From positions 40,315,715-40,379,714 of the forward strand of contig OU452200.1 of assembly GCA_911728435.2 (NCBI GenBank): a stretch of 64,000 nucleotides of DNA, given 5' to 3'. Position 1 is the first letter of the stretch, and each line of letters begins with the position of its first letter. Origin of the DNA: Apoderus coryli. Lineage: Eukaryota; Arthropoda; Insecta; Coleoptera; Attelabidae. The position numbers and the translations under genes are program-made. The notes under the pieces are model-generated. The model did no database searches. It saw only the letters and a program-made list of their open reading frames with translations, and was not told the DNA's origin. Below, piece after piece: positions 1-51,800 of the stretch.

Positions 1-496
1 GGCTTTATTTAAGAATTGCTTGTTACATAAAGCAACAAGACTTTAAGTTATGTTGGAAATTTATTTCACACTACCATGCTTCCACCAGAGAAAAAAAAAA
101 TAAATTTCCAACATAACTTAAAGTCTTGTTGCTTTATGTAACAAGCAATTCTTAAATAAAGCCTCCCTGCTAGGGGATTCGGGCGCATCTAGTGTTGGCA
201 ATAGGATATAATGGAGTTGTTACTTCTTATCCGGCCATCGTTAGTGAACTGTGTTTCACCCGGCATATTGCCTGTTCACGCTAGGTGTCGCCACAAACAT
301 CTCTCTCTCAATCAATACTCGTGCTAGTATAAGCTCTTTGTAAATGTTGGAAATTTAGGTCACACTGCCTGCCGATCACCACTGATGAGTCGTGGATCGA
401 CGAAACGGCCGTCTGGTGGAAGCATGGTAGTGTGAAATAAATTTCCAACATAACTTAAAGTCTTGTTGCTTTATGTAACAAGCAATTCTTAAACAT
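1..496. repeat. Hammerhead-bearing tandem/inverted repeat (retrozyme- or Penelope-LTR-like)
   Basis: The same sequence occurs three times: inverted at 1-87, direct at 102-165 and direct at 414-493. The two direct copies are about 336 bp apart, so 102-437 looks like one full unit running into the next. A type I hammerhead ribozyme sits at the junction (344-452). The inverted copy starts at base 87, the exact counterpart of the ribozyme cleavage point, and is separated from the first direct copy by an A-rich spacer (91-100). Tandem ~300-bp units with type I hammerheads, 5' truncation and inverted pieces are known for Penelope-like elements and their non-autonomous retrozymes. No reverse transcriptase or GIY-YIG endonuclease is seen here, so I call it a non-autonomous copy. 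The family assignment is inference; the repeat structure is direct observation. Confidence 0.75.
344..452 (+). ncRNA. Type I hammerhead ribozyme
   Basis: The core is complete: CTGATGA at 382-388, stem II GTCG/CGAC (389-392 with 398-401, loop TGGAT), GAAA at 402-405, and the cleavage triplet GTC at 411-413, so cleavage falls between 413 and 414. Stem III is the self-complementary ACGGCCGT (405-412), which leaves almost no loop; such minimal stem III forms are typical of hammerheads that act best as dimers. Stem I pairs 376-381 with 414-419 and, beyond an internal loop, extends through 344-369 pairing with 427-452, including a 14-bp run (ATGTTGGAAATTTA with its complement). All invariant core bases are present. 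Self-cleavage is inferred from structure. Confidence 0.87.
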
Positions 497-851
497 TATT
501 ATTTACCTGACATAAACACTTAGTTTTTGACTGGTAATTAAATTAAATGTTAGTTACGCTGAAAATAAGATAGTAATGGTAAATATTTTTGCAATTAGGT
601 AGAGATCGACTGGGGTTAAAATCTAATATAAACAAACATACAAAGTAGGTAGCTCTATCTCGTTTTATTCTAATAAAAAAAAATGCGTAAAGACTTTTTT
701 TTTTGATAGTTAATTAAAAGCAAATTAAAACACATTAAGGTAAACTTTCTTAACATGAAATTGATGTATGCAAATTTTACACTATAACTAATTCATAAAT
801 TAATGGTCGATGAATTAACACTTGTTTTTGTTTGTGTGTTTGTTTTTGCAG

Positions 852-1220: not shown

Positions 1221-4200
1221 GTGAGTACATGCTTTTTGTGTATAATTTTTTCATTTATTAAACAGGGTTAAAAGGTCAGTTGCAAGTATTATTTTTTTAA
1301 TTTGGAATGTGTCAAAAAGGATTTACTTTATTCTGAAATTATAAATAAAAATGTAAAAATAATAATTCCTAACCTCACCCAACTACCGCAAAAAATATAA
1401 ATATAAAATGGCAAGAGTAGGGATCGAACCCACAACCTTCCGATTACAAAGCCCACACGCTACCCGCTAGAATACACTCGATACACATCTGCTATGCGAA
1501 TTACCACGAGCACATCGGCTCAACGTAGCGCTACTTCTATAGGAATCGGAAAATGGCCACCAAAATACCCTCATAACTCTATGGGACAAGACCGACTGCC
1601 AACAGAAAATACAAGAAGCAAGGAAATCTACTTTAATCGAATAATTGACGAATGCTGTATGACGGCGTGGTATGTAGACTCTGAGATGGCTGTCAGTCCG
1701 TTACGGATATACGCTCTATAACGACTGAATTCCTAAAAACGAAGCAAAGAATGGACGTATCTCTATGCCCTCTGATAAGTTGCGCATGCGCAGAGAACTG
1801 TTCATATATAAATTTCTTTTGAAACACCTTGTATAAAACTATATATCCTAACAGAAAATTCATGGCGTAGGAGGACAGCTAATCAATCCTTGCCCAGGGA
1901 CTCCAGATTTATTGTTGTTAGAGTACAGTAATTAGCTATATATTCTTTAACATTTGGTCACCATGTATTCAAGGTATTTAACATACATAACATTTTTTTT
2001 TTTCAGGTGCCACCACTGATAACCTACCGCCTGGTGTACTTTATAGGGTGAAAGCAACTTACAAATACACTAGAGAGGACGTTGATGAACTGTCATTTGA
2101 AGTTGGTGAAATCATTTCAGTAATAGAGTATGATGATCCAGAAGAGCAGGTATGTTTTGTGGAATATAACTTGATAATCAATAAGTCATATTTTGTCTTT
2201 CTCCGCAATATTTCATTTGACATTTACATCAAATATGGCTGGTACTATTGTTATTTTGTCTGGAATATGATTTACGGTTTTCATAGTTCCTGTTTCAATC
2301 CAGAAAGAGGATTGACTCTGTGGAATTTCAATTAATGTTTTTTTATGAAAATCCATGTATTTTAAGATTCTTCCGTTAACCAACTTGAACGTCCTCACCG
2401 TTTCCTCTAGGCGTTATTATTATCGCTGCAGGAATAAGGGCTCTGTGTTCGCCTTCTTACTACACTAGTCTCAGGAACCCAAAAGCACTATCTAGAACAA
2501 GACAACTCTTCCGATCATTCTTTGATGCAGCAATGACATTTGCTTCAGCAGGAATTTAATTGCATTTTTTGGGTCATATTTAACGACTCGTCAGCAGTTC
2601 GTTGAATATATTGGCTATCGGTGTGATTGCTTCAATGTGCCGAGTGGAGTCCCACAGGGTTGTACCTTAGCACCTTTACTGTTTGCTATCTTTGTGAACA
2701 GTATTGGTGATAATTTCTCAAGCCAGCACTTGCTTTTTGCGGATGATTTAAAGTTGTACAGTGTTGTACGGTGTGCCGATGATTGTGATCGTTTGCAAAG
2801 AGACCTACATATGCTGTCTGTATGGTGTGACCTAAACAAGCTTCCCTTAAATGCTAATAAATGTAAATTTATAACGTTTACAAAACGTCTTACACCTGTG
2901 ATGCACAACTACATAATGGAATCGCGTTGGAGAGATGTAATGTCAGGACCTCGGTATTTATGTTGACAGTGAATTGACTTTTAATGATCATGTCTCACGT
3001 GTTTCGGCGGCTGCACTCAGGATGCTGGGATTCATTTTCCGAAAAACAAAGACAACAACAAATTTTAATAATATAGACTGCCTTAAAACGGTATTTTGCT
3101 TATGTACGGTCCAAACGAAAGGGCAGCTGTTTGGCACCATTAATATTTTCAATTTTCATTAATGACATATCCCAGGAACTTACAAGCAACCATTTGATGT
3201 TTGCAGACGATCTGAAGTTGTATCGTGTTATTCGAGACACTTCGGATTGCGTATTGTTGCAGCGCGACTTATCTATGCTTGAAGATTGGTGTAACTATAA
3301 TAAATTGCCTTTAAATATTAATAAATGTAAGTGTGTCATATTTTCGAAATCGCAAACTGTTTTTGAATATCGCTATCAGCTGAGTGACACTGCGCTTGAG
3401 TCTTGTGATGTTGTCAGGGATCTTGGAGTTTACGTCGACACTGAATTGTCATTTAATTATCATATTCAAAGTATTACCCGAGATGCACTACGCATGCTTG
3501 GCTTTTTGTTTCGTGTTACCAAAGATTTTAGTGATATTGAATGTGTAACCAATTTGTATTGTGCTCTGGTAAGATCTAAGCTTGAGTACGCATCTATAAT
3601 ATGGTCTCCCATTTACCAATCTCATGCAGGACACATTGAATACATACAGCGCAAATTCCTTAAATATTTAGCGTTTAAAATTGACGGTAGATTCCCATGT
3701 AGAGGGTTCGATCATAGAGCACTGCTCGATCGCTTTTAAATGGTTTCGCTAGCTGCTCGCAGAGTGTATGCCAGACAACTCTTTCTGTTTAAGATTATAA
3801 ATAGCTTGGTGGACTGTTCAAATCTACTCCGATCGTTAAATTTTAACATACCGCGCCCCTCTGCGAGGAGTAGCAGACTATTTCACGTTCCTGTTTTTCG
3901 TACTAATTATGAATCCAAAGCACCACTACTTCGAGCATGCCAAACATGTAACATAGAAGGATTTAGTCAAGAAATTAACTATTTCAATGAGCCTGTAAGA
4001 TCTTTCTGCGCTCAATTGTCTCGGTTCCTGCAAAATCTGGCCATCTGATGTGTGTGCGTATTTTGTTTTGTAGGATTATTTGTTTATTATTATAGTAGCT
4101 TATTTATTTATTATTAAATTGGAATATGCCTCAACTGTTTGGTCACCTATGTATCATGTCCATATGCGGAGGCTTGAGAACATCCAACGCAAATTCTTAA

Positions 4201-15565: not shown

Positions 15566-18500
15566 CTGAAAAAACAAATTAGACATGTGAAATTATGGTA
15601 ATAACAGAAATTTGCGTGAAAATAGATGTAATCATGCATTTTACAGACTTTACTGTGTCAGTGATGCTGATTCTGCATGCAAAATTCATCTCATTAAACA
15701 TTATACAGTTGTCCAAAATTTACTTCCTCTTTTAGATATAAGTTGTAAGAGTTACAGGCTTCTTTCTAACAGCTCTTTTTGTCTACTATTATAACTAGAG
15801 TAATAATAATTATAACAAAATTATTATTGACAGCCGTAGTATTTATTCACGTACCAGACAACAATAAAATCATGAAACTGTTAGCTTTGTATAAATACTA
15901 GCATTCAAGCGTGGCCGAAGCATTCCCGAAGATTTCCAATAACACTATATGGGCCGGTATTATAAACATGTTTGAAGTTAACTTTAATTTTAACAGTCAT
16001 GGTTAACTTGAGCTTTAGAATGTCTGTTTTATAAATGTGTCATTTCTAACCTAGAATTTTTCGCTCGGTTTTGTTTATGTACTGTGGTTTGTGCGTTAGT
16101 TTTTTTGTCTTGTCTTAGCTAACTGTCATAAAAATATATGGATAGACGAGCATTAAACTTTTCCAATGAAAAATTAGATTTCTTTTATTATTGGCGGATA
16201 AATTTAAGGACGTGGTGGAGTGAAAAAAAACTGATAGTTGGGTCTTTGTAAATTTAATAAATGTGCCCCATTAATAAGCCTACAGACTCCCTTGATAATC
16301 GAAATCGGTTTTTAAATTCTATTTCAACCTAGGATCAATTTTAAAACTGAATATTTGTATATGATGATGCTGTACAGCATTTACACTTCGAAGACGCCCA
16401 AGTAACTTTTTGAATTATTAAGGCGGCGATCAAGTGTGTTTTGACAATTTTACCATACCGCAGCATTCTGGTAGTAGATTTGAGGGCTGCTTTTCATATG
16501 CTGCCCCATATTTATTGAACAGGTACTGTGACTTGCCACCTAGGCAATTTCAAGATAATTTAAAGGAAATGTTGTTTAATTGAGACAGCTGCTCTATTTA
16601 GTTTTTTAATGTAATGTAATTGAACTGTTTTTGTTTTCTTTTGCTACTTTATTGTGAATTAATTAGTTATGTTGGAAATATAGGTAGAGTGGAACAATGG
16701 CCTTGAGCCAAATCTCTTACCTTTTGCACAAAGTTGGATAGGTGGATTACAGATTGTAATATCGCAATTTAGAAGAAAAAGTCATTCTTTATAAAATCGT
16801 CTGCTTGTGTCGAAATTTACGATTACTATACAGGGTATATCAAAAATAACATTTTTAATGATTTTGATTTTTTTGTTTTTTTTAATTTTATGAAAATATT
16901 TTCAAAGTCATGATTTATTACCCCAATTGTGCAATTGTGCAAAAAACACAAATAAACTTTTTTCTCAAAGTGGTTAATTTCATAGCTACTATTAAAATAA
17001 TAAAATTAAAAAAAAAACAAGGAAATCAAAATCATTAAAAATATTATTTTTGATATACCCTGTATAGTAATCGTAAATTTGTAGGTTTGACAAAAGTAGA
17101 CTTTTTTATAAAGAATGACTTTTTCTTCTAAATCTACAAATAAAAAAGTTTTTCTTCTTTCAAACTCTATCCAATGTGTCCACGGATAGAGTTTGGAAGA
17201 GCAAAAACTTTTTTATTTGTATATGTAGAAGAAAAAGTCATTCTTTATAAAAACGTCTGCTTGTGTCAAAACTACAATTTTGAGTACGAAATTTACGATT
17301 TCAAAAATAACATTTTTAATGATTTTGATTTCCTTGTTTTTTTTTTTAATTTTATTATTTAATAGTAGCTATGAAATTAACCACTTTGAGAAAAAAGTTT
17401 GTTATTGTTTTTTGCACAATTGGTGTAATAAATCACGGTTTTGAAAATATTTTCATAAAATTAAAAAAAACAAAAAAATCAAAATCATTAAAAATGATAT
17501 TTTTGATATGCCCTGTATAGTAATCGTAAATTTGGCATTTGAAATGATACTAATCTAAATTACTAGGTACTTATACAGGATGTCCCGAAATTAACTTAAA
17601 ATAATTTAAGGGGACATTCTACAAGCAAAAATAATGTTATTTTATGTATTTTATGTTTGTGCAATAAATGATTTATTTATTTATTTCGTTCCACGAGGTG
17701 AAATGGTCCAATCGATTTCTAAATATTTGGAAGTTAACTATAAAATGTGACGTCATTCCACAGTTAACTTTTAGTTATCTGTCAAAATAGTTTTATAATA
17801 CCGGCCCTAAATCATGTACTAAATTAATGATTTAATTTTAGCCGAAAAACGAGCGAAATTGGCGAGTTAGAAGATGCCACCAGCATCTCATAGTGGAAAA
17901 CAAGAAAGAATTGCTGGACAATTTGGAAAAGCTTGAGAACTATCTATTGCGTTTATCCATCATTTGTGACAACGGGCGACGCATCGATACACTACTATAT
18001 TTGAAAATAATAGCAGTTTCTTAAGACAGAGAAGATTTAACTTCACGTAATAAAGAAAAACCAGTACATAATATTGTGCAATAACAGTGAAATCTTCAAA
18101 TATTGGCCTAGAACTAAAAGGATTTCATGTCCGTAAATATATAAATGAAAAATAATTTAATGGCAAAGCGGACTAAAATGCTGGTTTCACCTACACAAGG
18201 AATTTTGTTTAATTTAGCAGGGCCCCAGTCTAATTCAATAGAACCAGACCGAGGCATGGGTCGACAGATACTGACGAATTCGTTTCGCTCTTGTTCTGAG
18301 CTCGTCAGAGTATCATAGTCGTTGCCCATCTACAAATATCGGCCTGCCTTTAAGCACAATAGGATACACAACAGTAGACACATGTAAACACGTATCATCT
18401 ACATGTACATAGTAATGCATATCCTATACCATGCAGAGGCCGAACAAACTCAATGTATAGGTAAAACCAGTCGTATAAATAGAAATAAATATAAATAAAA

Positions 18501-21500
18501 GTAGTATGAACACAAAACGCTAGCAGGAGACCATTTTATCCTTCTGCCAGCATCTCCCAAATATTTGGGTTTCAGCAATGCTCGGACGGTGGTCTCCAAG
18601 CGGTCTGCCGTCAATGTTTAATGCCAAATAAGCATTGCCGTCCGAGCATTGCTGAAACCCAAATATTTGGGAGATGCTGGCAGAAGGATAAAATGGTCTC
18701 CTATAGTATTTTTATTTATATTTATACGACTGGTTTTATCTACACATTGAGTTTGTTCGGCCTCTGCATGGTATAGGATATGCATTACTATGTACATGTA
18801 GATGATACGTGTTTACATGTGACTACTGTTGTGTATCCTATTGTGCTTAAAGGCAGGCTGACATTTGTAGATGGGCAACGACTATGGTACTCTGATGAGC
18901 TCAGAACAAGAGCGAAACGAATTCCTCAGTATCTGTCGACCCATGCCTCGGTCTGGTTCTATTGAATTAGACTGGGGCCCTGCTAAATTAAACAAAATTC
19001 CTTGTGTAGGTGAAACCAGCATTTTAGTCCGCTTTGCCATTAAATTATTTTTCATTGGCCTAGAACCTGATCATAAAGCAGTCAGTCGGTTCATTATCTG
19101 TTCATATACTATCGTGGGCAAAAAGGTCATAGAGAGACCCTATTTTTCAAGCCGCGAAGAAACATAATCGAAAAGAAATTATGAAACACGTTGCTATAAT
19201 ATAAATACCAGTTCCTATACTATAAACGAATGCAAAGAAAGGTTCTCATCTCAATAACTGATGGCAATTTTAAAAATCTATCCTTAAGAGGTGAACTTTT
19301 CGTATCGCAAAGAAGAGTATTTTATGACCCAGATCTTTACTGTGTTTAAGGGATTGGTGAGACTATTAATAGGGTTTATTTGTGTACATTTAAAAGAAGT
19401 TATTGTATTCTACATAATTTGAGAAATGTATCCCCTTTTTAAAGTAAATAGTTAACAACACGTTGAAGTTGCTGGATGCTACTATATTTTTACGGTAAGT
19501 ATCTCAAGAAACTACTTTCTCTTGGACGACCCGTCTAACTGTACTGTCATGTCATTCACACAAATAATTAATTTCTCCCCACCCACCTTAAATTTTACAA
19601 AAGCGAAGCAACGGTTACTGATGATCATAATTACAGTTCTAATCTGTATGTCTTGGTTTGAAGTTATAACTCTTACAATTTACAAGATTGCAATTAAATT
19701 TTGGCGATTAGACCCAAGCGACTTTTTAAAATAATCTATCACATTTACATTTTGATTTCTGCGTAGTAAATAGTAGGCTAGGCTGATTAATTTGTTAAAT
19801 TAGACGAAACTTTCAAACCCCAACATCGAACGCGGGTCAAAAATTTTTATTTTCTCTTTCAAATCTAGTGACTTTTTTTAGATTCACAAATAACACAGAT
19901 TAAATAACAATTTGTTATTTAATGTCAAAACATTTTTTCTCTTACACAACATTTCGACAATGTAAAACTGTTGCCTTCCTCAGGTAAAACATAATGCAAA
20001 AATCGTCTAGTCGACAAATGAATGAATGTGAAAACATTTGTATTAACAGTTTTACGTTGTTTAAGAGAAAAAAAAAATGACAGTAAATAACAAATTGACA
20101 ATTAATAACAAATTGTTATTTAATCTGTGTTGTTATTTGCGAACCTCATCCCAAGAATGTGTGAATCCAAATATATATTGAAGAAATAAGGCTCAAGAAA
20201 AAGAAAAGGAAAATCAAGTGACTGAAAAGTTGTAGGTACATCCGCAATGTTTGGCCCTGCAAAGTTTCGTAAAAAGTTTTTAAGCGTTAAAATCATTTTC
20301 CATTAGTAGTTTAAACTTTGTCCAGATAAATTTTCAACCCAACCTCATATGGAAAATAAATATCATTCCAGAAGGAAGAAATAGTTGGTGAAATGAATCT
20401 GATCAATCAATGATTATATTAATGAATATGACAACACAAATGATGATCCACTAAAACATGAAGGATGGAATTGCATGTGATATCGAATGAAATTACGATT
20501 TAATATGTTAACGAATCAACATACCTTAAGCTAAATTAAACTCTTTTAGAGCATTTTGCATTATGGTATCTTTTACAGCACAAAAGACAAGTTTTATATT
20601 TTCAGTGTCTAACATAAAAAAAATTTAAATATTTGAAAAAATCCACATTCCATTAAGTTAGATAGAAGGCATGCAAAAAGGAAAGAAATAACGTAAATAT
20701 TTGTGTATATTCTGCAATTAAAACGTCTTCACATTATGATCGAAAACTTATTGTGAAGCAAGTGATTGATTTGGGAAGCTTAAAATATAGTTTTCACAAT
20801 TATCAAGTCAAAGGCGATCAATTACATACGAGGCACGTTTTTTTAGTAAGTACCGTTTTGCAATTCCGCCGCCGCAGCGCTACGGTCGGCGTCCCGCCCA
20901 TGCGCGCTGGTTACCTACATCTCTTGTCTACACACTGACGCCATTACAGTCTGATTCCTCATTGTATACGTTGTTTACTGAGTGTTTAAGATGCCTCCGA
21001 CAATCGTGAGTTCCGCCGATTGTGAAGTACGGGCTGTTATACGATTTCTTAGTGCTAAAGGCGTAAAACCGATCGATATTCATCGTGAGATCTGTGAAGT
21101 TTACGGACAAAACATTATGAGTGATGGAATGGTAAGGAAATGGGTGAGAGCATTTAAAGATGGCCGCACAAATGTGCATGATGAAGAACGGAGTGGGCGT
21201 CCTTCGGTCGTTAATGAAGATTTGGTGCAGAAAGTGGAGGAAAAGGTGAGAGAAAGCAGACGCTTTACAATTTCATCAATGTGCGACTGCTTTCCTCAAT
21301 ATTCTCGTAGTGTTTTGTATCGCATTGTGACCGAGAACTTGAATTACCGGAAATTGTGTTCACGTTGGGTTCCAAAAATGTTGATGGATTTGCACAAAAC
21401 CCAACGTTTAAGCAGTGCATTGACTTTCCTTGAGCGGTACCACAATGAAGGTGAAGATTTTTTAGACCAAATTGTTACTGGTGACGAAACATGGGTGGCC

Positions 21501-24500
21501 TACGTCACACCAGAATCGAAACAACAATCCATGGAATGGCGACATTCATCATCACCCAAAAGAGTGAAGTTTAAGCAAACAATTTCTGCCCGGAAAATCA
21601 TGTGCACAGTTTTTTGGGACAGAAAAGGAGTATTGCTAGTGGAGTTTCTGCCTCGTAATGAGACAATCAATGCAGCGTCTTATTGTGAGACATTGAACAA
21701 TCTGCGTCGTGCAATCCAGAACAAAAGACGTGGCAAGTTGAGTAAGGGTATCGTTTTGCTGCATGACAATGCCCGTCCAGATGTGGCTAATCGGATCAAA
21801 GATCTCATCAAATCTTTTAAATGGGAAACTCTAGATCATCCTCCATACAGCCCTGATCTGGCGCCCAGCGACTACCATTTGTTCCTGCACTTGAAGAAAC
21901 ACCTGGGTGGTCAGCGTCTTCAAGACGATAACGAAGTCAAAATATTTGTGATACAGTGGTTAACAAGGCAGGCGGCAGAATTTTATGAGGAGAGTATTCA
22001 AAAACTGGTGCCACGTTACAAGTGCCTCAATATTCACGGAGAAAAGTAGATTAAGGTACAGGCTTTCATGTAAAAATAAAATTATTGCGATATCTTTGCA
22101 CGTCTTTTTTTAATTCCAAAACGGTACTTACTTAAAAAACATGCCTCGTACAATATAGTGGCCATGTTTTTCAGATTCCTGTCAAAATTGATGTTCCGGT
22201 TTAATATAGTATTTGTTGGAAAATTAATAAAATATTCGGACTACATTTCGCACATTCCGTGAAATTTATGGAAATTAGGGTATATTTTGTAAACAAATGC
22301 AATAATATTTCGTAAGTGGTAAGTTCTAAGACATACGGTTTTAAAGATACAGCCGATGGGTACTCTTAATGAACCACCCTATATATAGCTCGTATTTGAT
22401 CACCCTTCACTTACTCAACTCCTTGTGCAATATTAAAAACAATTCACAATAATATGCTAATTATAATATGAAGATACGTATTATAAAATTCAAACCCCAA
22501 CCCGACCCAAAAGCAAAATAATTAACAAAAGCAACTTTAGTACAATAATACTCATTAGTATACATGCATTATACTATAGTCTCAATTTGAAGTTACCTGT
22601 AGCACAAGTAAAATGTGAGTATATAATTTTTTCACTGTCCGGATTTAGATCAACAAACATCCTGAGGATAAATTCTCTAGCTGCAATTGCATCTCGTTGA
22701 GGACCTAAGCAAAATTCAAATTAACAACATCTAGCATACAATTTACAACTACAAATTATATTTACGATATACCTAGCAATGCTACAGATAAAAGTTTTGA
22801 CGGATATACGTATGTACTTAATAGTTTTCTAGAATTTGAGAATTTGGCTATACATAAGCACTCTCGAAAACCTACAAAATCAGGTCCGCTAACGCTGCAT
22901 CATCCTACGTGGACGACATCAACGCACGATGCAAGCGAAACGTTTTACAAATCTTTCCTGCAGTGAAGACTCACAGGACGTCGCGCGGTTGACGCGGAAA
23001 CTGATACAATTAACAAATCAAATTATTTTTTCAGAAAACGATTATTATCAAAAATTGTCACGTCATTGTCGGCGTAGGCTGCAACGCTCGCTGTTGTCCT
23101 CCACATAAAACGTATCGTGAGAGACTGAGGCGTCAACTTTTACTGGCGATGACGAAAAATTGAACCTCTTGTCCACGTTCAATAGCTTGATCTTAAAGCC
23201 GGCTTTCGTCATAAGCAAGCCCCTAGAACGGTTAAGCCGTAGAGTTTTATGATAAGAAGACTGACCTCACTCTAAGATAACCTAAAAATAGCGAACTGTC
23301 AAAGTGATTCGACATTTGGAAGTAATCTTTTTACAAAGAACGCCTCGCCGACTGTTTTCAGCACCAAAAACAGCAGTGATGCAGGAAAAAGTCCATACTG
23401 TGAGCAAGCTCATCCAGGAAGACATATCGCGAGATTGATGCATTATTATGGGTTTCAATTGAAACATTTTTGTATGAAGAACTATGTATAAAAAACTAGT
23501 TTACCATTGGAAACCAGATCTGTTGATCAAAGAACAGAAAACACTTTTGGCTCGAGCAGAGAGATACATCCAACCACGAGTGGCGAGTCCCACCTGAGTG
23601 AAGATCATGGCTCGGGATTGTGCACAGAGCTTGACCTATACGAAGCCTGATTCTTTTTCTATTTCCGCATGTCACAATTCTGCTGTATCCAAAATAATAC
23701 ACACTTGATGCAGGTTGACAAATGACATAGAGAAAGTTACGCTTCAATCTTGAAACAGTTAAAACCCGCATGAAAAATCGTGAATAGAAAATTACTTCCA
23801 TTTGCAACTTATAGACAGAAAAAATTTGGATGTTAACTTAGAGCAGCCTATGTCTAAATTTCAATTTTCCTTCAAGCTTATTTATCCAAGGAATATTAAT
23901 GAAAGCGGATAATATAAATAAATATGCATTAAAGCACCAATGAATTTATCCTAGAAAAAGGAAAAAACACTCGGCACTGGGGTTTACTTTGGATCTCTAC
24001 TCAAATCGTTAGCATGATAATTACTTTATTCACAACAAGCCAATTCTCATATATACGGTACAACCTGTTGCAGTAGTAAAATGGGAATAGCACTGCCGTT
24101 CCGGATCTGGATTCTCACGTAAATATACTTTCAGGATATATTCACGAGCTCCGATATGATCTTGTTTGGGTCCTTTACAGAAAATGTAAACAAAAAAAAA
24201 TACTAAAGTAAGGAGTTAAAGATTCACTAGGTATAAATTTAAATATAAAAGCCTTGGAAGTTTAATTAATGTTGGTATTGATAAGACAGTTGCACAGCGC
24301 GCTCTAGCGGAAGTTTTAGGCAACGTACACAACAGCTGATTGAAGTGTCACTGCGTAAATTTAAAAAAAAATGCAAAAAATTCGGAACGACCATGGGCTG
24401 ATTCAGATATGCTCAGCAGGTCAACGTTCGCTGTTAATGTTTGCTCTGAATGCATAGCATAGCTGAGTTTAATATGCTTTTTGATACAAACTAATTTGCA

Positions 24501-27500
24501 AGAATACAGGTTTCTTCAAAACGACAGTCGAAAATGTTGGGTACTAGTGTCACTGGAGCTACGAAGAGAAGAGAACAGAATTCAAGAACTTCCGCGCCGC
24601 TGGCATTGATGAAGGGTTAGAGCCAAATGTGCATTATATCAGGGACAGATAATATACTGAATGTTCTTCAATCTTACCATCATATTCTGGAAAATAATCA
24701 ACGAGATGTGAGTACATAATTTTTTCCTCCAATAAATCTTTTTTATTTAAGAACAATATTACAGACGAATGCTGGAACCAAGGGTACGTTATTATTGTTT
24801 TGAATAATGCCTTTGATTCTTCCATACGATTCTGAAACACAAAATAAATACATTCAGAAGAAATTCGATCATCTACTGAAGTGAAAGTAGTTTGTCCCAT
24901 AAATATCCGGCCTATGTTCATAAATCGGGAGTTCCCCAGGGTTCCAACTTAGGCCCTTTATTATTTTTTACTTTTTCATAAATGACCTGGGCTCTTTCAT
25001 CATGTCTGAGAGATTGATTTTCGCGGATGATCTAAAGATCTTTGCCAGAGTGAGTCGAGTTGAGGACTGTATTGCTCTTCAAAATGATCTTGACATCATT
25101 AAGGAATGGTGCGACACTAACAAAATATCCTATCTAAACCTTTCTTTTATACCTTCAGAGATTTTCGCCGTTTTGACCAGGATCTCTTTTACAATGACCT
25201 TATGAATATGCCTTTTTATAATATATTTTACGTTAATAACATCGATGATAAAGTTGCGCTATTCAATCAATATCTTTTGGAAGTGTTTGATCGTTATGCC
25301 CCCATAAAAACGGTAAGAATTTCTAAGAAAAGAGCACCATGGCTTTCTCCTGCTCTAAAGAATCTGCAAAGGCAAAGACAAAAAGCCTTGGCGAAATATA
25401 AGCGGAGTAGATCGGTTGGTGATTGGGACAAATACAAAAGAATTAGGAATTTAGTAACATCGGAAACAAGAAACGCAAGGAAGAGGTATTTGGAGCATAG
25501 CATTCGCGAGGGATCTCCAAGGCAGAACTGGAAACTTTTGCGTGAACTGAATGTGTGTTCAGGGGATAGGGTATCTCTGCCACCTACTCTGGGTAATGCA
25601 GATGCCATTAATGATTTTTTTGTCGATATTCATAACAATCCCCCTGATAAAGATACAGTGAGATTTTATTTATCCAACTACCTTAAACCCAATGTAAAAT
25701 TTGAGTTCAGAATGGCGAATTATGACGAGATATCTGATGCACTACTTAAGATTAAATCGAATGCAGTGGGGCATGATGGGATTAGTGCTGATATGCTGGT
25801 GAGATCTTGTCCATATATAGTTCCCATTATATTACACCTGGTAAATTTCTCTATTGAAACATGGAGCTTTCCTTTAAGTTGGAGGCAGGCAAACATTATT
25901 CCGATGCCTAAGAATAAATCTCCATCAGTTTTGAAAGACCTGAGGCCCATTAGCATACTGCCTGCAATCTCTAAAATCTTTGAAAGAATTTTACATAACC
26001 AAATACGAGAATACCTTGATGAGTACGGCTTGCTTCCGGAAGTTCAATCTGGTTTTCGCAGGGGTCACAGCTGTTCGACGGCACTGTCGAGTGTATTGGA
26101 TGATGCATTGCTGGAGGCGGATCGTGGTCGATTAACGGCTTTGGTGCTGTTGGACTATTCCAAGGCATTTGACCGGGTTGATCATGACTTATTGCTGGCG
26201 ATCTTGAATTATCTTGGCTTTGGAGACTGTGCGCTAAATTTACTTGGAATGTATTTGAGTGACAGGAGCCAGGCTGTGCTGCTGGGTGGGAAGATGTCGC
26301 GGCGTAAAGTGTTGGGCTGTGGTGTGCCACAAGGCTCAATTCTTGGCCCGATGTTGTTTTCTTTGTATACATCACAGTTCATTGGGGTCTTGAGACACTG
26401 CTCGGCACACTTATATGCTGATGACACCCAATTGTACATGTCCTTCAGGCCGGATAATATGGTTGACGTCGTGAGGCTTATCAATGATGATCTGGGACGT
26501 CTCGTGGAAATCTCTAATAAGCACTGCTTAACAATGAATCCCACTAAAACGCAATTGTTGCTGTTGGGTGCGCGTCGTGCTCGGTTGGACTGCTCCGCTG
26601 GACTGAGACTTGATTTGGCGGGTTTTGAACTAAAATGTGTCAATGTTGTAAAAAGCCTGGGCCTGCACATCGATGCAGATTTGAGGTTTAGCGAGCATGT
26701 AAGTGCGTGTATTAAGAAGGCGTTTTGTAATCTAAAATTGATCTATGGCCAGCGGGGACTACTGAGTCGGTCTATGAAGAAAATGCTTTGTGATAGCTTG
26801 GTCCTGTCGCATTTTGATTTTGGCGATGTCGTCTATGGGCCTTGTCTGCTTGGTGTTGATGAGCGCAGGATACAGCTTATGCAGAATTCTTGCATTCGTC
26901 TGATAGCTGGTATTCGAGGAAGAGAACGTGGTGTAAGTGCCAAGATTTCTGAACTGGGATGGCTGAGAATGGATCAGAGGCGTCTGCTACATTCACTCGT
27001 TTTTTATAATAAAATAATACATAATAAAATTCCAACATATTTGTTTAATAAAATTGAATTCAGATCAAGTGCTCATCCTATAAATACCAGAAATGCTCAT
27101 ATTATTACTCCACCCCTACACTACACAGCATTATTTGAACGGTCATTTAGCTATAGTGTTTCGAGATTGTACAACGTACTACCCGGCGATGTGTCCGGGT
27201 TGTCTGGCCACCGCTTCAAATCTATGGTTAGGAAATTAATAGTTAGCAACTCTCTTGCTTGTTAAAAGTTTTTATGTTTATTTTTTTTTGTCTTAAACCG
27301 GGTTACTTATATGTGTAAGCTTTCATTGAGGTCACATTTATTGTTTTTGTTTTTTTTATTGTCTTGTATATTTCTCTTGTGTATGTCTAGAATAAGTAAT
27401 AGATAAGGTTAAGCTAGGAGGCATGTGCCTCAACTTCGCCTTTTGTGTATCTACTATATCACAATAAAGTCATTATTATTATTATTTATTATTATTATCC

Positions 27501-33500: not shown

Positions 33501-36500
33501 AAACCTTCAGAGGCCAACGCAGGGAAGCTTATCCAACTGGAGAGAAGCGACCTAAGGCGAATTACAGGCCTTTTTACGGGACACCACCCAGTGAAGTACC
33601 ATCTCAAAAAGATGGGCCTAACCGAGGACGACACTTGTCGGTTTTGCGAAGACGCAACAGAGACAACAGAACACGTGCTCTGCGAATGCATGGCACTTTT
33701 CTGCAAAAGGCGAAAACACCTTGGAGGTGTGACCCTAACACCCGACGAGGCAAGGAATTTAGCCCCCAGAGAAATCATCAACTTTATGAAAAGTGTGGGA
33801 CAGCTAGGCAATTCATAGATTAGAGTCATTCACAAAAGATCTTCTGCAGGTCGAAGTGAGGGGAGGCCAAACCGCCTAAACGACTCCGAAAAACAATCTA
33901 CAAAATCTACAATCTACTATTAAGACGTAAATTTTATTTGAAAATTAGCCACTTTCGCAAGAGGCCAAAAAAAAGGGAGACGAACCAGTATTGTTCTAAA
34001 ATTCCAGAACCTTGATAGACAGGAAAAAATTACCAAAATAGCAAGTACTAGGACTTTGCGCCAGCAGATATTAACACCCAACACATAACTGAAGTCCACA
34101 AGTTAGTGGAGGTTGGAGGGTACAGGGTTGTTGAATTGTGTGGCATAAAATACGGGGACTTTTCACAATAAGCCCATGAGGCTGCAGTGAAACCGGGGAC
34201 TTATGTCGAAGGGTCGCTAAAAGTACTAGGACTAGGACAAAGAAGCTTCTAATAAAGAATATAGTGATGAAGATGAACCAGATTATACTGTTAAGACGCA
34301 AATTTTATTTGAAAATTAGCCACTTTCGCAAGAGGCCAAAAAAAAGGGAGACGAACCAGTATTGTTCCAAAATTCCAGAACCTTTATAGACAGGGAAAAT
34401 TGCCAAAATAGCAAGTACTAGGACTTTGCGCTAGCAGATATTAACACCCAACACATAACTGAAGTCCACAAGTTAGTGGAGGTTGGAGGGTACAGGGTTG
34501 TTGAATTGTGTGGCATAAAATACGGGGACTTTTCACAATAAGCCCATGAGGCTCCAGTGAAACCGGGGACTTATGTCGAAGGGACCCTAAAAGTACTAGG
34601 ACTAGGACAAGGAAGGTTCTAATAAAGAATATAGTGATGAAGATGAACCAGATTATACTGTTAAGACGCAAATTTTATTTAAAAATTAGCCACTTTCGCA
34701 AGAGGCCAAAAAAAAAGGGAGACGAACCAGTATTGTTCTAAAATTCCAGAACCTTGATAGACAGGAAAAAATTACCAAAATATCAAGTACTAGGACTTTG
34801 CGCCAGCAGATATTAACTAACACCCACCACATAACTGAACTCCACAAGTTAGTGGAGGTTGGAGGGTACAGGGTTGTTGGATTGTGTGGCATAAAATACG
34901 GGGACTTTTCACAATAAGCCCATGAGGCTGCAGTGAAACCGGGGACTTATGTCGAAGGGGCGCTAAAAGTACTAGGACAAAGAAGCTTCTAATAAAGAAT
35001 ATAGTGATGAAGATGAACCAGATTATACTGTTAAGACGCAAATTTTATTTGAAAATTAGCCACTTTCGCAAGAGGCCAAAAAAAAGGGAGACGAACCAGT
35101 ATTGTTCTAAAATTCCAGAATCTTTATAGACAGGGAAAAATTACCAAAATAGCAAATACTAGGACTTTCCGCCAGCAGATATTAACACCCAACAAACACA
35201 TAACTGAACTCCACAAGTTAGTGGAGGTTGGAGGGTACAGGGTTGTTGAATTGTGTGGCATAAAATACGGGGACTTTTCATAATAAGCCCATGAGGCTCC
35301 AGTGAAACCGGGGACTTATGTCGAAGGGACCCTAAAAGTACTAGGACTAGGACAAGGAAGGTTCTAATAAAGAATATAGTGATGAAGATGAACCAGATTA
35401 TACTATTAAGACGCAAATTTTATTTAAAAATTAGCCACTTTCGCAAGAGGCCAAAAAAAAAGGGAGACGAACCAGTATTGTTCTAAAATTCCAGAACCTT
35501 GATAGACAGGAAAAAATTACCAAAATATCAAGTACTAGGACTTTGCGCCAGCAGATATTAACACCCAACACATAACTGAACTCCACAAGTTAGTGGAGGT
35601 TGGAGTACAGGGTTGTTGAATTGTGTGGCATAAAATACGGGGACTTTTCACAATAAGCCCATGAGGCTGCAGTGAAACCGGGGACTTATGTCGAAGGGGC
35701 GCTAAAAGTACTAGGACTAGGACAGAGAAGCTTCTAATAAAGAATATAGTGATGAAGATGAACCAGATTATACTATTAAGACGCAAATTTTATTTAAAAA
35801 TTAGCCACTTTCGCAAGAGGCCAAAAAAAAAGGGAGACGAACCAGTATTGTTCTAAAATTCCAGAACCTTGATAGACAGGAAAAAATTACCAAAATATCA
35901 AGTACTAGGACTTTGCGCCAGCAGATATTAACACCCACCACATAACTGAACTCCACAAGTTAGTGGAGGTTGGAGGGTACAGGGTTGTTGGATTGTGTGC
36001 CATAAAATACGGAGACTTTTCACAATAAGCCCATGAGGCTGCAGTGAAACCGGGGACTTATGTCGAAGGGACGCTAAAAGTACTAGGACTAGGACAAAGA
36101 AGCTTCTAATAAAGAATACAGTGAGGAAGATGAACCATATAATACTATTATTACGCAAATTTTATTTGAAATTTCGCCACTGTCGCAAGAGGTCCAATGG
36201 TCTACATTATATTCAATCTATTGATATTTTTAACTGCCTTAATACTATATGATGTTAAAAAAGCAAATAAAGGTCCAAAGAAAATTAATTTACATTACTC
36301 TTCGAACTCCCAAACGAATGATATTTGTAACTTATATTTATATACTTTAGACAAATTTTCTAGAAGATTTCAATAAATTGTCAACTGTTCAAAAATTTAC
36401 ATGAATTAACAAAATTTAACTTAGAGCATGTGCTATCAACGACAGAAATACTTTGTTCAGTAGTACCAGTGTTGAGTCATCCAGGCAAATTATATACTAT

Positions 36501-42500: not shown

Positions 42501-45500
42501 AAGAAAAAGGCCAAACCTGCACCAACCTAAGAAAAAACATTGCATTTAAACAAACATAGCCATACTAGAAAATGAAATAGTAGACCACGCCGCAAAAGAT
42601 GCCATTACAGATGAAAACGCCCAAGTCATCCCAGGGACCATCCCACAGACGTCAAAACCTTCATCAAACAAAAAACATAAGAAAAATGGCAAAACATGTG
42701 GAACCAATCGCAATCAAAAATTCAACGAAACCTTGGAGCTTTACACCCAGACAAAGGAACCAACAAGTCGCTATAACAAGACTCAGAACAGATCACACAA
42801 ACCTCACCCATGAATTATTCATGATCATCAAATCCGACAGACCCAAATGTAACACCTGCAATACAACACAATCTATAAAACACCTACTAACTGTACGGAA
42901 TGCCAAGAAACCCAACAAACACGAAGAGAACAAGGAAGAAGTATTAGACCAAGAAAGGAATATTGAAAAAATACTTTAATTTATAACAGATTGCGAACTA
43001 CAAAATGAACTGTTAAAGTTAAAAATAACGTAAAATGTAAAGCACAATGTAACGTATAATGTAATGTATAATGTAACGTATAATGTAATGTATAATGTAA
43101 TGTATAATGTAATGTATAATGTAACGTATAATGTAATGCATATAAATACAAACCGTACCGTGCTAATAACCTATAGGGTTGATGCCACATTAAACAAATT
43201 AACACATTCGCTGCCCAGAACGCGCCAAGGGCGTTGGCTATCATTTTGGCTCTGTGCCCACACCGCCCCCTGTATTTTCTTTTACCATCCCATTTTTATT
43301 CCAACAGGAAAGACAAACGGTCAAACTATTATTACCTAACAAAAACAGTAAGCGGTAAAAAACCGATGACCAATAAGCAACGTTGTCACTGCGTCGGTAA
43401 CAGGTCCACTTCCGTTAAATTTCTAACTTAACTGTCAATTAATTTTGCAAAAGGAACGTACGACTGAGCGAGGTGAGTGAAACTAACGTGTGATGTCATA
43501 TATCTATTTGCTCCCCGCCAGAGTGCGAATCAAACAACCAATTTCAGACCGCTACGAGTGTCGATAGGACTCAATCCTAGGCCATTATTTACGTACAACG
43601 AAATTTCCCAGTTTGGTGAGATATGCAGATGTAGGCTAATGATGTCCAAGTATTGCTTAGATCATTTGATTGTGCAGAAGCAAACCTTGAAATTAATTAG
43701 GAACTTGAAACGCTGTACCTACAGTCATGCTTGATAAAGACAGAATAGTAAATTTCGTTAAAGTGATTTTAACCAGCAACTTGCATTGCCGGCATTACCA
43801 AATTAGAGAATCATATAAGCAAGCTCGCTGGAGCTTAATTGTGTGGGGATTGGTCTGTTCGGAAATAGGATAATAGAACCACAGTTTCTACCCGGGATAC
43901 TAAACGCCGAAAACTATGCCAATTTTTGCGATAACTTAATATCTACGCTACTGGAAGTTGTTCCTTTAGTACAGCGGCCAAATATTGTGTTTCCACATGA
44001 TGGTGCACCTGCCAATTATTTTCGAAACGTTCGAGAGATATTAAATCGACGTTTTCCTAACCAATGGATCGGTCGTGGAGGACCTATTTCTTGGCCTCCT
44101 AGGTCCCCGGATCTCAACCGAATAGACTTTGGGGTTATCTAAAAAATTCGGTTTACCATGTCCTGCTGAACAATTAAGATGACGTTATTCTTCGCATTTA
44201 TGGAGTTTTAGCACAAATTACAAACGAAACAATAAGCCGTGTAGAAAACAATTTAAGTGGGAAGTTTTTTTTGCATACCCTGTATATAAATCCTTACTAA
44301 TATCTTGCATTAAACTTAAATTTATAAAAAAACGTAACGTCCATTGGATACTTATGTATTACCTGGCTGGAGGGTTCACCATACTGGATCTTCAACAAAT
44401 CCATAGCCTTGATCATACTTTGCATGGCCATGAAAATGTTTTGGTAAACCAGTTTTATAAATCCACGTTTGTCTTCATCGGAATAACCAGCGCCGTGAAT
44501 GATCCGCATCTGTTTGATAAAGGTGGACTTCCCCGATTCACCAGTACCTATAAAAGTCATAAATATTAACTAGCGACAGTCTTTTACTTTATTATCAAAG
44601 CGAAATGTGACCGATTCCTAATAACTTCCAGACCCACTTAAGTGGTATTTAATTCGATTAAAGATTTGAAAGGAACACCATAGATGTTCCGCCGTCTCAT
44701 GATCCTCCAGACACATACGGCATTCGAATTTGTCCGGTGCCTAACCAAGTCAAAGAATAACCTGTAGTTAAATGACTTCAATTCTTCAAACCAGGAAATG
44801 TTCGGTATAGGGCAAATAACCTAAACTTCAACCAACGTTTCATCTATTTAAAATAAACAACTTTAGGGTCCAGTAGTAGAATAGTAGTCATGATTTTATA
44901 CGACTAGGTATAGACACCATCATAAAACAACAACACATCAATATAAGTACTTAGGTATGTGAAAACAAATATATAAATCAAACTATTATTATTTACTTAA
45001 ATTAATGAAATAATAGCTTGAATATGTTTGTGTTGTTTTATATGTTGTTCTTGACCCATGCCGACAATATCCTGATTTGAAGAATTTCGTAGAATATCAA
45101 GATATTTGCGTAATACCTACATACACTACTTCATGGTGATCCAAATTATTCTTCAAACTGGTCACTATTTACCCCATACTTATATTGTAATAACAATGAA
45201 TTTATGGTGATAAACGAATTGTTTTGTTGTGTGTTTAATTTAACTATTCTCAGACAACTTATGATATGATTATGATTATAAGTATATCTTAACAAGGAAT
45301 AAGTATTTTATAATTTTTTATTAGGTCTGTGAGTTTGTTGCCAATAAAGTAGTCACGTACGTTACCAACTAATATTCATATTGATAAAATCGACCCTACA
45401 AGTCAGTTTCGTCTCTGGTTCCAACCGTAAAGATTTAAAGTAGGTACTTATTCAAGGTACCTATAGCTTCAAGGTTTTTCGTTTTTCTAACCTATAAACA

Positions 45501-48834: not shown

Positions 48835-51800
48835 GTAAATAAGCTTCAATAATAATTTATAACAACAACATTTAAATAAGTTATGGTAAATTATAGTGGA
48901 GCAGAAAGCAAGTGACAGTAAAAGTGGGAATACGCAACCAGCTGTGAAAAAGAAAGCTGCCAAAAAAGGTTTGTATTTTGTCTGCGTTTTCATTTTGCTC
49001 AGTTTTACAGTACTTACTAATATTTACATAGGTAAAAAGAAGTTAGATGACTGGTCGGACAAAGAGAATAGTGATATAGAACTCAAAGTCCCTGAGGATG
49101 AAGAACAAGTCGCTGTACCAGTGAAGAAAGCTGCTAAAAAAGGTTTGTACTTTGCAATATGCTCAACATTTATATATCTATTATTTACATAGGTAAAAAG
49201 AAGTTGGATGACTGGTCGGACAAAGAGAATAGTGATATAGAACTCAAAGTCTCTGAGGATGAAGAAAAAGTCCCTGTTCCAGTGAAGAAAGGTGCAAAAA
49301 AAGGTAAATCGAAAAAACAAAATGACGTTGATGATGAAAAAAAAGTTTCTGAAGAAGAGGAGATCGTAATACCACAACCAGTATTGAAAAAAAAGTCAAA
49401 GAAAGCTAAAAATAAACAGCATGTTGATAGCGATAACGAATTTAATCAAGATTCTGATATTGACGATGATGTAAAGAAAACGAATGAAGTTGAGGATTTA
49501 GAAGAACCTGAAGAGGTGTTACCGGGTAAAAAGAAGGGTAAGAAACCGCAGAAAAGCAAAAAGCAACAGAATGATGATAGTGGCGTTGAAGATGAAGATA
49601 AATTATCTGAAACTGAGGGAATTGTCAACGAACCTAACGTTTCCAGTAGTGAAGTGAAAACTACACACAAAGAAGAATCTATTAAAGACAAAGAAACACC
49701 ACCGCAAATAGATATTAACAAATCTGTGAAGTCGAAGAACAAGACTGGAGCAACCTCGAATGAAAAACCAGAAAGTGTATCTGAAAATAAGAAATCTTCT
49801 GAGGATATCAATGATACTATAAAAGAATCTACTAAGAGCTCAACAAACACGGAGGAGTCTGAAAAGAGGCTGACCCACAAGGAAAAGAAGAAGATGAAAA
49901 AACAACAAGAATATGAAAAACAGATGGAAGCTATGTTAAGGAAAGGTGGTCAAGGTCATTCTGATTTGGATAGTAACTTTACAGTATCACAAGCACAAAA
50001 GACTGCTGGGCAGTTGGCTGCTTTAGAAAATGCGGTCGACATTAAAATTGAAAATTTCAGCATAGCGGCTAAAGGCAAGGATTTGTTTGTAAATGCCAGT
50101 CTGCTTATCGCACAGGGTAGACATTATGGGTTGGTGGGACCTAATGGGTAAGAAAAAATTGTAATTACCTAGTATCCAGTCAGTCTTACAAGCAGTTTTG
50201 ATTTTCGAGTTTATGAACTGGATACTACACAGTTACCAAATGAATTCTCATGAAATTAAAGTTAACTTGTGTGTGTTTCTTCAAGCCATGGAAAGACAAC
50301 GTTACTGCGACATATATCCACTCGAGCATTCGCAATTCCACCTAACATTGACGTACTTTATTGCGAACAAGAAGTGGTTGCTGATGATTTTTCAGCGGTC
50401 GAAACTGTACTTAGGGCTGATGTTAAACGGACCGAATTGTTGGAGGAGCAAAAAAAGTTAGAAGATGAATTAAATAATGGTAATTTGGAAGTACAAGATC
50501 GATTGAATGATGTGTATGGGGAACTCAAATCGATCGGTGCTGATTCGGCGGAACCAAGAGCTCGAAGAATTTTGGCTGGTTTAGGATTTACACAAGAAAT
50601 GCAGGTAGGTCTGATTAATGGCCGTAAGTATTCGTATTTGCTAAATGTTTATGGTTTACGTTTTTTTGTTTCAGGATAGAGCTACGAAGAACTTTTCTGG
50701 TGGTTGGCGGATGAGGGTGTCTCTGGCTCGAGCACTCTATATCGAACCAACGTTGCTGCTTTTGGATGAACCTACAAACCATTTAGATCTGAATGCTGTA
50801 ATTTGGTTAGATAAGTAAGTAATGTTCTCAAGTGCACTAATTTTGTCTGAAGCAGGCTTTATGGTATATATATATATATATATTTAACTATGATCCATAA
50901 TGTACATACATGTACTTCCCTCTTTTTTATTCTTGTAATAGATTATTAATTTTGGTATCTCTGCACTGTTTACGGCATTTTAATAATAATAATCTTTATT
51001 ATGTCTAACAGGCTTACGCCCAATTACAAGACAAAACATATTATGCATAAATTATCCAGAAATATCAAAAAAAACACAAAAATACAAAAAATATATATAT
51101 GACAATGGTATAAATTAATTATTATAAATTAAATTAAATACACGTGAAAGATTAGAACCGTCATCAACAGCAATGATACAGAAAAACATCTACAAATGGA
51201 CTGACCTTAAATACTCTCCTAGTTCCCGTTTAACGGAGGAAACACTTCCGCCGAAATAATTTACATGTCTATTTAAGAACCAACCGTTACATAGCGTGCA
51301 AGCCCTTGTCAGTGGTGTTTTCCCTTCATAATTGTGGCGAAATCGGGGTGGTTGAAATAAATAGGGGTTACGAGAATGGTATTGAGGGGCGTTAAAATTT
51401 AATTGCGAAAGAAGTCGGGGGCAGTCAATCAGAGAATTGATCAGTTTAAATAGAAATAGTTGATAACTGAACACTCGCCGGAATTCGAGAGAATCGACAT
51501 TAAATCTGTCGAGCAGCTGTCTATGTTCGATACCTCGTGAAGGAAAATGACCATCAATTCTATAACAAAGATGCTTTAAAAATTTGCGTTGTATTTTCTC
51601 AAGTTTTAGAATATGGGTCTGGTATATAGGAGACCATAGAATTGAGGCATATTCAAGCTTGCTTCTAACTAGTGCATAGTAAAGGGCGATAAGACAATCG
51701 ATGTTCTCAAATCCCGAAGTAACTCTCAGTATAAACCCCAAACTACGCAGAGCACAGCCACATATATCCGTTATATGATCATTGAACGATAGATCAGAAT

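Follow-up and report, generated by a model that had tools for sequence, protein, structure and literature searches.

Hammerhead retrozymes with a Penelope-type insertion footprint: head-to-head arms and two complementary end sites

The first half-kilobase of the window (the whole 64-kb stretch analysed, C7:40315715-40379714 of a 428-Mb genome) raises two questions: whether the hammerhead motif that it carries is a genuine ribozyme, and how the repeat around the motif was inserted. The initial annotation described a type I hammerhead with all core bases, a perfect stem II, a minimal self-complementary stem III and a stem I continuing outward, placed in a tandem repeat of about 336 nt, with parallels in Penelope-like elements (PLEs) and animal retrozymes. 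The structural part of this description holds throughout (Table 1): the segment 376-419 combines the conserved core with three helices, of which helix I is the open one, as in type I hammerheads, and the repeat unit, hereafter family A, measures 337 nt. What the annotation overlooked is that the repeat lies in a head-to-head insertion flanked by target site duplications (TSDs), and that a second hammerhead family, family B, is present at 18102-19066. The insect host that it assumed is plausible, as (TTAGG)n runs occur on four contigs.

Table 1. Features of the family A and family B insertions (window positions unless a locus is named; s1 and s2, recurrent arm ends near unit positions 59 and 215).
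Feature	Position	Strand	Remark
Type I hammerhead ribozyme	376-419	+	predicted cut C413^T414
Hammerhead stem I, inner strands	TCACCA 376-381 / TGGTGG 414-419	+	sequence reading
Hammerhead core CTGATGA	382-388	+	
Hammerhead stem II, 4 bp	GTCG 389-392 / CGAC 398-401	+	loop TGGAT
Hammerhead core GAA	402-404	+	
Hammerhead stem III ACGGCCGT, self-complementary	405-412	+	followed by C413
Outer stem I extension around the ribozyme	344-452; arms 344-369 / 426-451	+	inverted repeat, 88% complementary
Family A minus arm, part inside the window	1-89	-	whole arm L035 3853-4089, 237 nt
5'-to-5' arm joint	90-97		8 nt extending the match of neither arm
Family A plus arm, 396 nt = 1.17 units of 337 nt	98-493 (L035 4098-4493)	+	outer 3' end at s1
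s2-equivalent position (unit 215), internal to plus arm	312	+	second recurrent arm 3' end
Right family A TSD copy ACATTATTATTT, 12 bp	493-504		
Left family A TSD copy ACATTATTATTT	L035 about 3842-3853		left of the window
Left family B TSD ATTGGCCTAGAAC	18102-18114		longest shared word; few microhomology bases possible
Family B minus arm with ~29-nt outer-end tail	18114-18600	-	intact hammerhead 18314-18267
Family B plus arm without tail	18638-19056	+	hammerhead from 18892, one stem III pair broken
Right family B TSD	19054-19066		

In a 1-kb search with the hammerhead covariance model Rfam RF00163, the 376-419 copy scored 32.3 bits (E 6.3e-6), slightly below the gathering score of 34 bits, and at the gathering threshold Rfam gave no match across the whole 64-kb window. 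Two other places in the genome reach 37.4 and 34.4 bits with RF00163, the former being a family A copy (L001; L-numbers label the genomic loci fetched for analysis). The segment 340-456 has a predicted energy of -56.1 kcal/mol (z -8.6; none of 200 shuffles folded as well), its optimum fold differing from the hammerhead fold at the core. For the isolated 44-nt motif, fold prediction gives -6.9 kcal/mol for the hammerhead fold vs -16.1 kcal/mol for the optimum; as far as predicted folds go, the motif alone disfavours the hammerhead, in agreement with a dimer requirement.

A custom three-stem hammerhead descriptor matched the window twice, at 376-419 (+) and at 18308 (-). Among 100 dinucleotide shuffles (mean 0.33 matches) six reached two matches, so the motif by itself is only moderately significant. 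A looser pattern, with 23 matches vs 17.9 expected, was uninformative alone and pointed to family B, and exact pattern scans of a general genome-contig and a viral-contig collection, neither built for insects, returned 0 matches each. What settles the question is recurrence: the intact family A-type core occurs in 38 distinct sequence contexts among all fetched loci, by which, as judged from sequence, the hammerhead at 376-419 is genuine. In the same loci the commonest intact B-type core occurs in 25 distinct contexts. Since the copies of both families are young, intact cores say little about selection. The ribozyme presumably cuts in vivo, of which arm 5' ends at the cut site are the sole sign here.

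Once the left flank (L035) is added, the window locus becomes an inverted pair, in which the minus arm has its 5' end at most 2 nt from the hammerhead cut site and its outer 3' end at s2. Thus, the tandem reading has to be divided: tandem arrays exist elsewhere in the genome, while the locus itself holds little more than one unit plus an inverted copy, flanked by a TSD. The family A unit is non-coding, with GC 43.9%, and no stop-to-stop frame of at least 90 aa is listed within 1-493 (the list excludes frames crossing the window edge). In family B (arm GC 38.6%) a listed frame, 18871-19167, overlaps the element and extends beyond it; among the listed frames of both families none encodes a reverse transcriptase (RT) or GIY-YIG domain. 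Judged by the listed frames, the A unit and the B arm thus have the lack of coding capacity and the GC below 50% that characterise animal non-LTR retrozymes. Judged by the same frames, neither family is itself a PLE; the presumed helper is a PLE. Matches to miRNA families at 1-185 and 18558-18669 fell below gathering scores and stem from the inverted arms, which form long hairpins.

The genome search for family A (40 of 1534 candidates scored) gave 182 matches, only part of them listed; the other tandem copies with a conserved core and stems, on which the initial annotation depended, are therefore present. Long tandem arrays occur, e.g., at C16:7063942-7067531 and C19:14637506-14642899, and with its 337-nt unit family A falls in the 150-450 bp range of the tandem type I hammerhead repeats of animal retrozymes. 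Manual grouping of the listed matches produced 39 clusters, a best-matching rather than random sample. Among these, 29 are two-armed, and all 29 are arranged head-to-head, with the minus arm on the left and the plus arm on the right, and have a TSD of at least 8 bp (shared flanking word 8 to 14 bp). The outer ends, read in batches of 14, 10, 3 and 2 clusters (the middle of L120/121 being unread), follow a simple rule: in 28 of the 29, one outer end falls at s1 (close to unit 59) and its counterpart at s2 (close to unit 215), the exception being L040, whose second arm ends at unit 159; both arms end at the same site in none of the 29.

As a null for the TSDs, we swapped flanks among 24 of the 29 clusters. 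The median shared word was 5 in the 552 mismatched pairs vs 12.5 in the true pairs; 46 mismatched pairs reached 8 and none exceeded 11, and 21 of the 24 true pairs reached 12. The other clusters are nine one-armed ones and a complex one without TSD (L038). Seven of the one-armed clusters end at s1 (L037, L047, L058, L064, L134/135, L136/137 and L132/133, the last of which may contain a second arm of ~10 nt) and two at s2 (L114/115, L118/119); a convincing TSD is absent in three of the nine (L037, L118/119, L136/137). The Rfam-derived L001 has divergent arms, one ending at s1 and one at another end, and no TSD. The insertions at C16:7063942 and C19:14637506 occupy the same target with the same 14-bp TSD and have s1 and s2 on opposite sides, which is most simply explained by two insertions rather than by duplication. 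This common target lies in repeated sequence and may be an insertion hot spot. At L002, L003 and L004 the family A hammerhead has diverged relatives in which stem II is altered; in L004, an older relative, one stem II pair is compensated by sequence inspection (GTCC/GGAC vs GTCG/CGAC).

Family B, of ~525 nt as estimated from match spacing, is unlike family A in sequence, and its hammerhead has stem II GCTC/GAGC and stem III ACGAATTCGT. The genome search, which scored 40 of 1530 candidates, yielded 84 matches and led to 30 fetched loci (L005-L034), of which L005, L022 and L023 duplicate L006, L015 and L016, leaving n=27. The arms are divergent in 22 of the 27 and convergent in none, and five loci are one-armed. 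The tail of ~29 nt is found on one arm only in 19 of the 22 two-armed loci, and the remaining three have one tail and an unusual other end; concordant ends (both arms with a tail or both without) occur in none of the 22. At L008 the second arm consists of a 27-nt tail stretch only. A TSD of at least 8 bp is present in 17 of the 22 two-armed loci; in the corresponding flank null, 12 of 462 mismatched pairs reach 9.

The window contains further repeats and frames. A tandem array at 33915-36197, with about six copies of a period of 370 and 94% matches, gave no match to the hammerhead descriptor; a short 12/24-nt tandem repeat lies at 43026-43142 and MITE-like inverted arms (98 nt, 90% complementary, 11 nt apart) at 17075-17281. 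An open mariner-like transposase frame spans 20982-22049 (Transposase_1 and Mos1 HTH), and RVT_1 reverse transcriptase frames at 25121-27265 (+), 3077-3739 (+) and 51190-52674 (-) are probably LINE remnants.

The same architecture is found in PLEs resident in this genome. Of 1260 candidates in the GIY-YIG genome search, 150 matches were scored, and among these all 19 neighbouring pairs at most 8 kb apart are divergent. We fetched the ends of seven pairs, four from a first family and three from a second; the five pairs readable at both ends all have the tail on one arm only. In the first family, L094/95, L096/97 and L098/99 are tailed on the right arm only and have shared flanking words of 13-14 nt, and L100/101 has lost one arm and offers no tail comparison. 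In the second family, L122/123 and L124/125 are tailed on the left arm only, with TSDs of 12-13 nt read by eye (the automatic word search gave chance words only), and in L126/127 the sequences diverge before the end, which precludes a tail comparison. L128 and L129 are single GIY-YIG matches of another group. In the first family a ribozyme, CTGAGGA..GAAACGCGCGTC, with a self-complementary stem III, lies 50 nt before the tail-less end. Based on domain, hammerhead and architecture, we classify the GIY-YIG loci as putative PLEs. No 3' sequence common to families A and B and the two PLE families was found in 16 comparisons (the best was matched by 51 of 500 shuffles), and comparison of eight GIY-YIG loci with the A and B sequences gave short chance matches only. 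At L097 (from about 800) a copy of family B is found no more than about 0.6 kb away from a PLE end.

Similarity of the arms was assessed in 78 unit copies from 18 insertions. The two arms of one insertion diverge by 0.50% of unit sites vs 1.35% between insertions, and in 20000 permutations random arm pairing never gave a value as low (sum over the 13 insertions with both arms comparable). Taken singly, in 10 of the 13 insertions an arm other than the partner is the most similar, the partner ranking first among 13 in only three; in four of the 13 (ins03, 05, 08, 10) the two arms diverge about as much as those taken from separate insertions, perhaps owing to age or mixed templates.

The inner 5' ends of 52 arms, forming 26 joints, are scattered over the whole unit. 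Six of them lie 0-4 nt upstream of the first post-cut base vs 0.77 expected (P 1.5e-4), in an interval picked after data inspection and with two of the six coming from one joint (L065); only two are exactly at the cut, and 46 are away from it. Among the one-armed clusters, L047 starts exactly at the cut site and L114/115 within 3 nt of it. The arms overlap by 0-4 nt in 16 of the 26 joints (by zero in five of those), and 1-17 bases are inserted in 10. On the unit, the two 5' ends are at most 16 nt apart in eight joints, some of them palindromic (e.g., L065, L107), and 23-154 nt apart in 18; fold-back may thus join a minority of insertions. The predicted energy of a family A circle, computed for a single sequence, is -110.1 kcal/mol vs a mean of -79.3 in 30 mononucleotide shuffles; the predicted fold would leave both start sites mostly unpaired, which, read as one multiloop, is only a hint.

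We consider it quite probable that the two families, A at 1-493 and B at 18114-19056, are retroelements of the animal non-LTR retrozyme type, non-coding and non-autonomous, that are copied by PLEs. Their insertion is most likely the work of PLE machinery using two RT start sites, probably with circular or multimeric RNA as the template. Transcripts, most likely dimeric ones, would be cut by their own ribozyme, and the RNA, as a circle or self-processed multimer, would be copied in trans by the PLE-encoded reverse transcriptase/GIY-YIG endonuclease. Both target strands would be cut, 8-14 bp apart, and each target 3' end would prime synthesis, one at s1 and the other at s2 or, in family B, one at a start site without the tail and one at a start site with it. 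Both cDNA copies would run toward the RNA 5' side, sometimes for several rounds, and short microhomology or fill-in would link their ends into a head-to-head array flanked by a TSD. Similarly, a PLE protein was reported to nick and extend both strands in vitro, RT starting at two sites that bound the tail; against this model, strand and start site were unlinked for the PAc PLE in vitro, and ribozyme mutants still inserted (PMC11167929).

Several observations speak against PLE-type copying: the start sites of family A are ~156 nt apart and not 30-40, 3' sequence matching A or B was not found in the two PLE families, the four insertions with unlike arms and the ten with a closer non-partner arm are unexpected, most arm 5' ends are off the cut, and 9 of the 39 clusters are one-armed and one complex. 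Linear multimers would also yield tandem arms, which weakens the case for a circle.

Such linear multimers are the template in L1-type twin priming, where the second target strand primes internally on the same RNA and no circle takes part. It predicts the same divergent orientation, its linear oligomers account for multi-unit arms, and a few arms do end at the ribozyme cut; it also overlaps with PLE-type copying, which allows a circle or a multimer. Classical twin priming, however, gives non-overlapping arms with the second site chosen by microhomology, whereas here both arms may cover whole units repeatedly and the second site is fixed; besides, multimers should be shortened by ribozyme cutting. 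We regard this explanation as rather unlikely. Self-priming, in which a single copy serves, by folding back, as primer for its second arm, was proposed for Penelope on an antisense template (PMC3846280) and would also produce the head-to-head form; the eight joints with close, sometimes palindromic 5' ends and the overall likeness of the two arms are in line with it. As a general route it is improbable, as 5' ends are farther apart in the other 18 joints, and fold-back should tend to end both arms alike, which is seen in 0 of 29 A and 0 of 22 B two-armed insertions.

An origin at the DNA level appears highly improbable. Recombination or inversion of tandem arrays could make a palindromic satellite, gene conversion could homogenise it, and an assembly artefact might look similar; but TSDs flank all 29 two-armed family A clusters, outer ends recur while inner ends vary, and the opposite-polarity C16 and C19 insertions at one 14-bp target indicate insertion events.

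Within PLE-type copying, a more specific arrangement is possible, though we hold it with some doubt: two RT subunits would start at two fixed sites of one shared RNA circle, with one strand of the cut target as primer for each, and roll around it. The genome would then receive a palindromic array printed from a single ribozyme circle, and the PLE tail would be the visible distance between the start sites. The one-site-per-arm rule provides a concrete, testable picture of PLE insertion, and the optional PLE tail gains a possible reading from it.

Three known systems are close enough for comparison. L1 twin priming uses linear RNA and yields non-overlapping arms from a second site that is not fixed. 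It resembles A and B in divergent arms primed from both target strands, and differs in that the arms of A and B can overlap and their second site is fixed.

Animal non-LTR retrozymes, as described in PMC7229834, agree with both families in the type I hammerhead and the lack of coding capacity, and with family A in tandem repeats of a few hundred bp, low GC and TSDs longer than 4 bp. They are presented there as tandem repeats of 150-450 bp, insects being mentioned, whereas A and B are head-to-head with two complementary end sites and family B, at ~525 nt, exceeds this size range. Linear and circular monomer RNAs are a further hallmark of animal retrozymes. In the available parts of the open-licence literature we found no earlier account of head-to-head retrozymes.

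PLEs, in turn, share with A and B the head-to-head inverted repeats, the TSDs and the minimal type I hammerhead (PMC3846280, PMC11167929). Penelope itself is described with inverted ends in head-to-head order, TSDs of 8-10 bp and an optional 31-bp tail on one inverted end (PMC3846280). The combination of head-to-head arms and TSD that marks PLE-type integration is found in 29 of 29 two-armed A clusters, and in family B all 22 two-armed loci are divergent, 17 of them with a TSD of at least 8 bp. The parallel with PLEs and animal retrozymes drawn by the initial annotation holds. Unlike A and B in their listed frames, PLEs encode RT and GIY-YIG, and their tail of 30-40 nt on one arm is to be compared with ~29 nt in family B (19 of 22) and with sites ~156 nt apart in family A. 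According to the discussion in PMC7229834, PLEs are strong candidate helpers of animal retrozymes, the mobilising enzyme being so far an argued guess. In these terms, A and B are animal retrozymes whose insertion footprint is of the PLE type, and two retrozyme families that bear the unusual integration marks of PLEs of the same genome bear on the question of which enzyme moves retrozymes.
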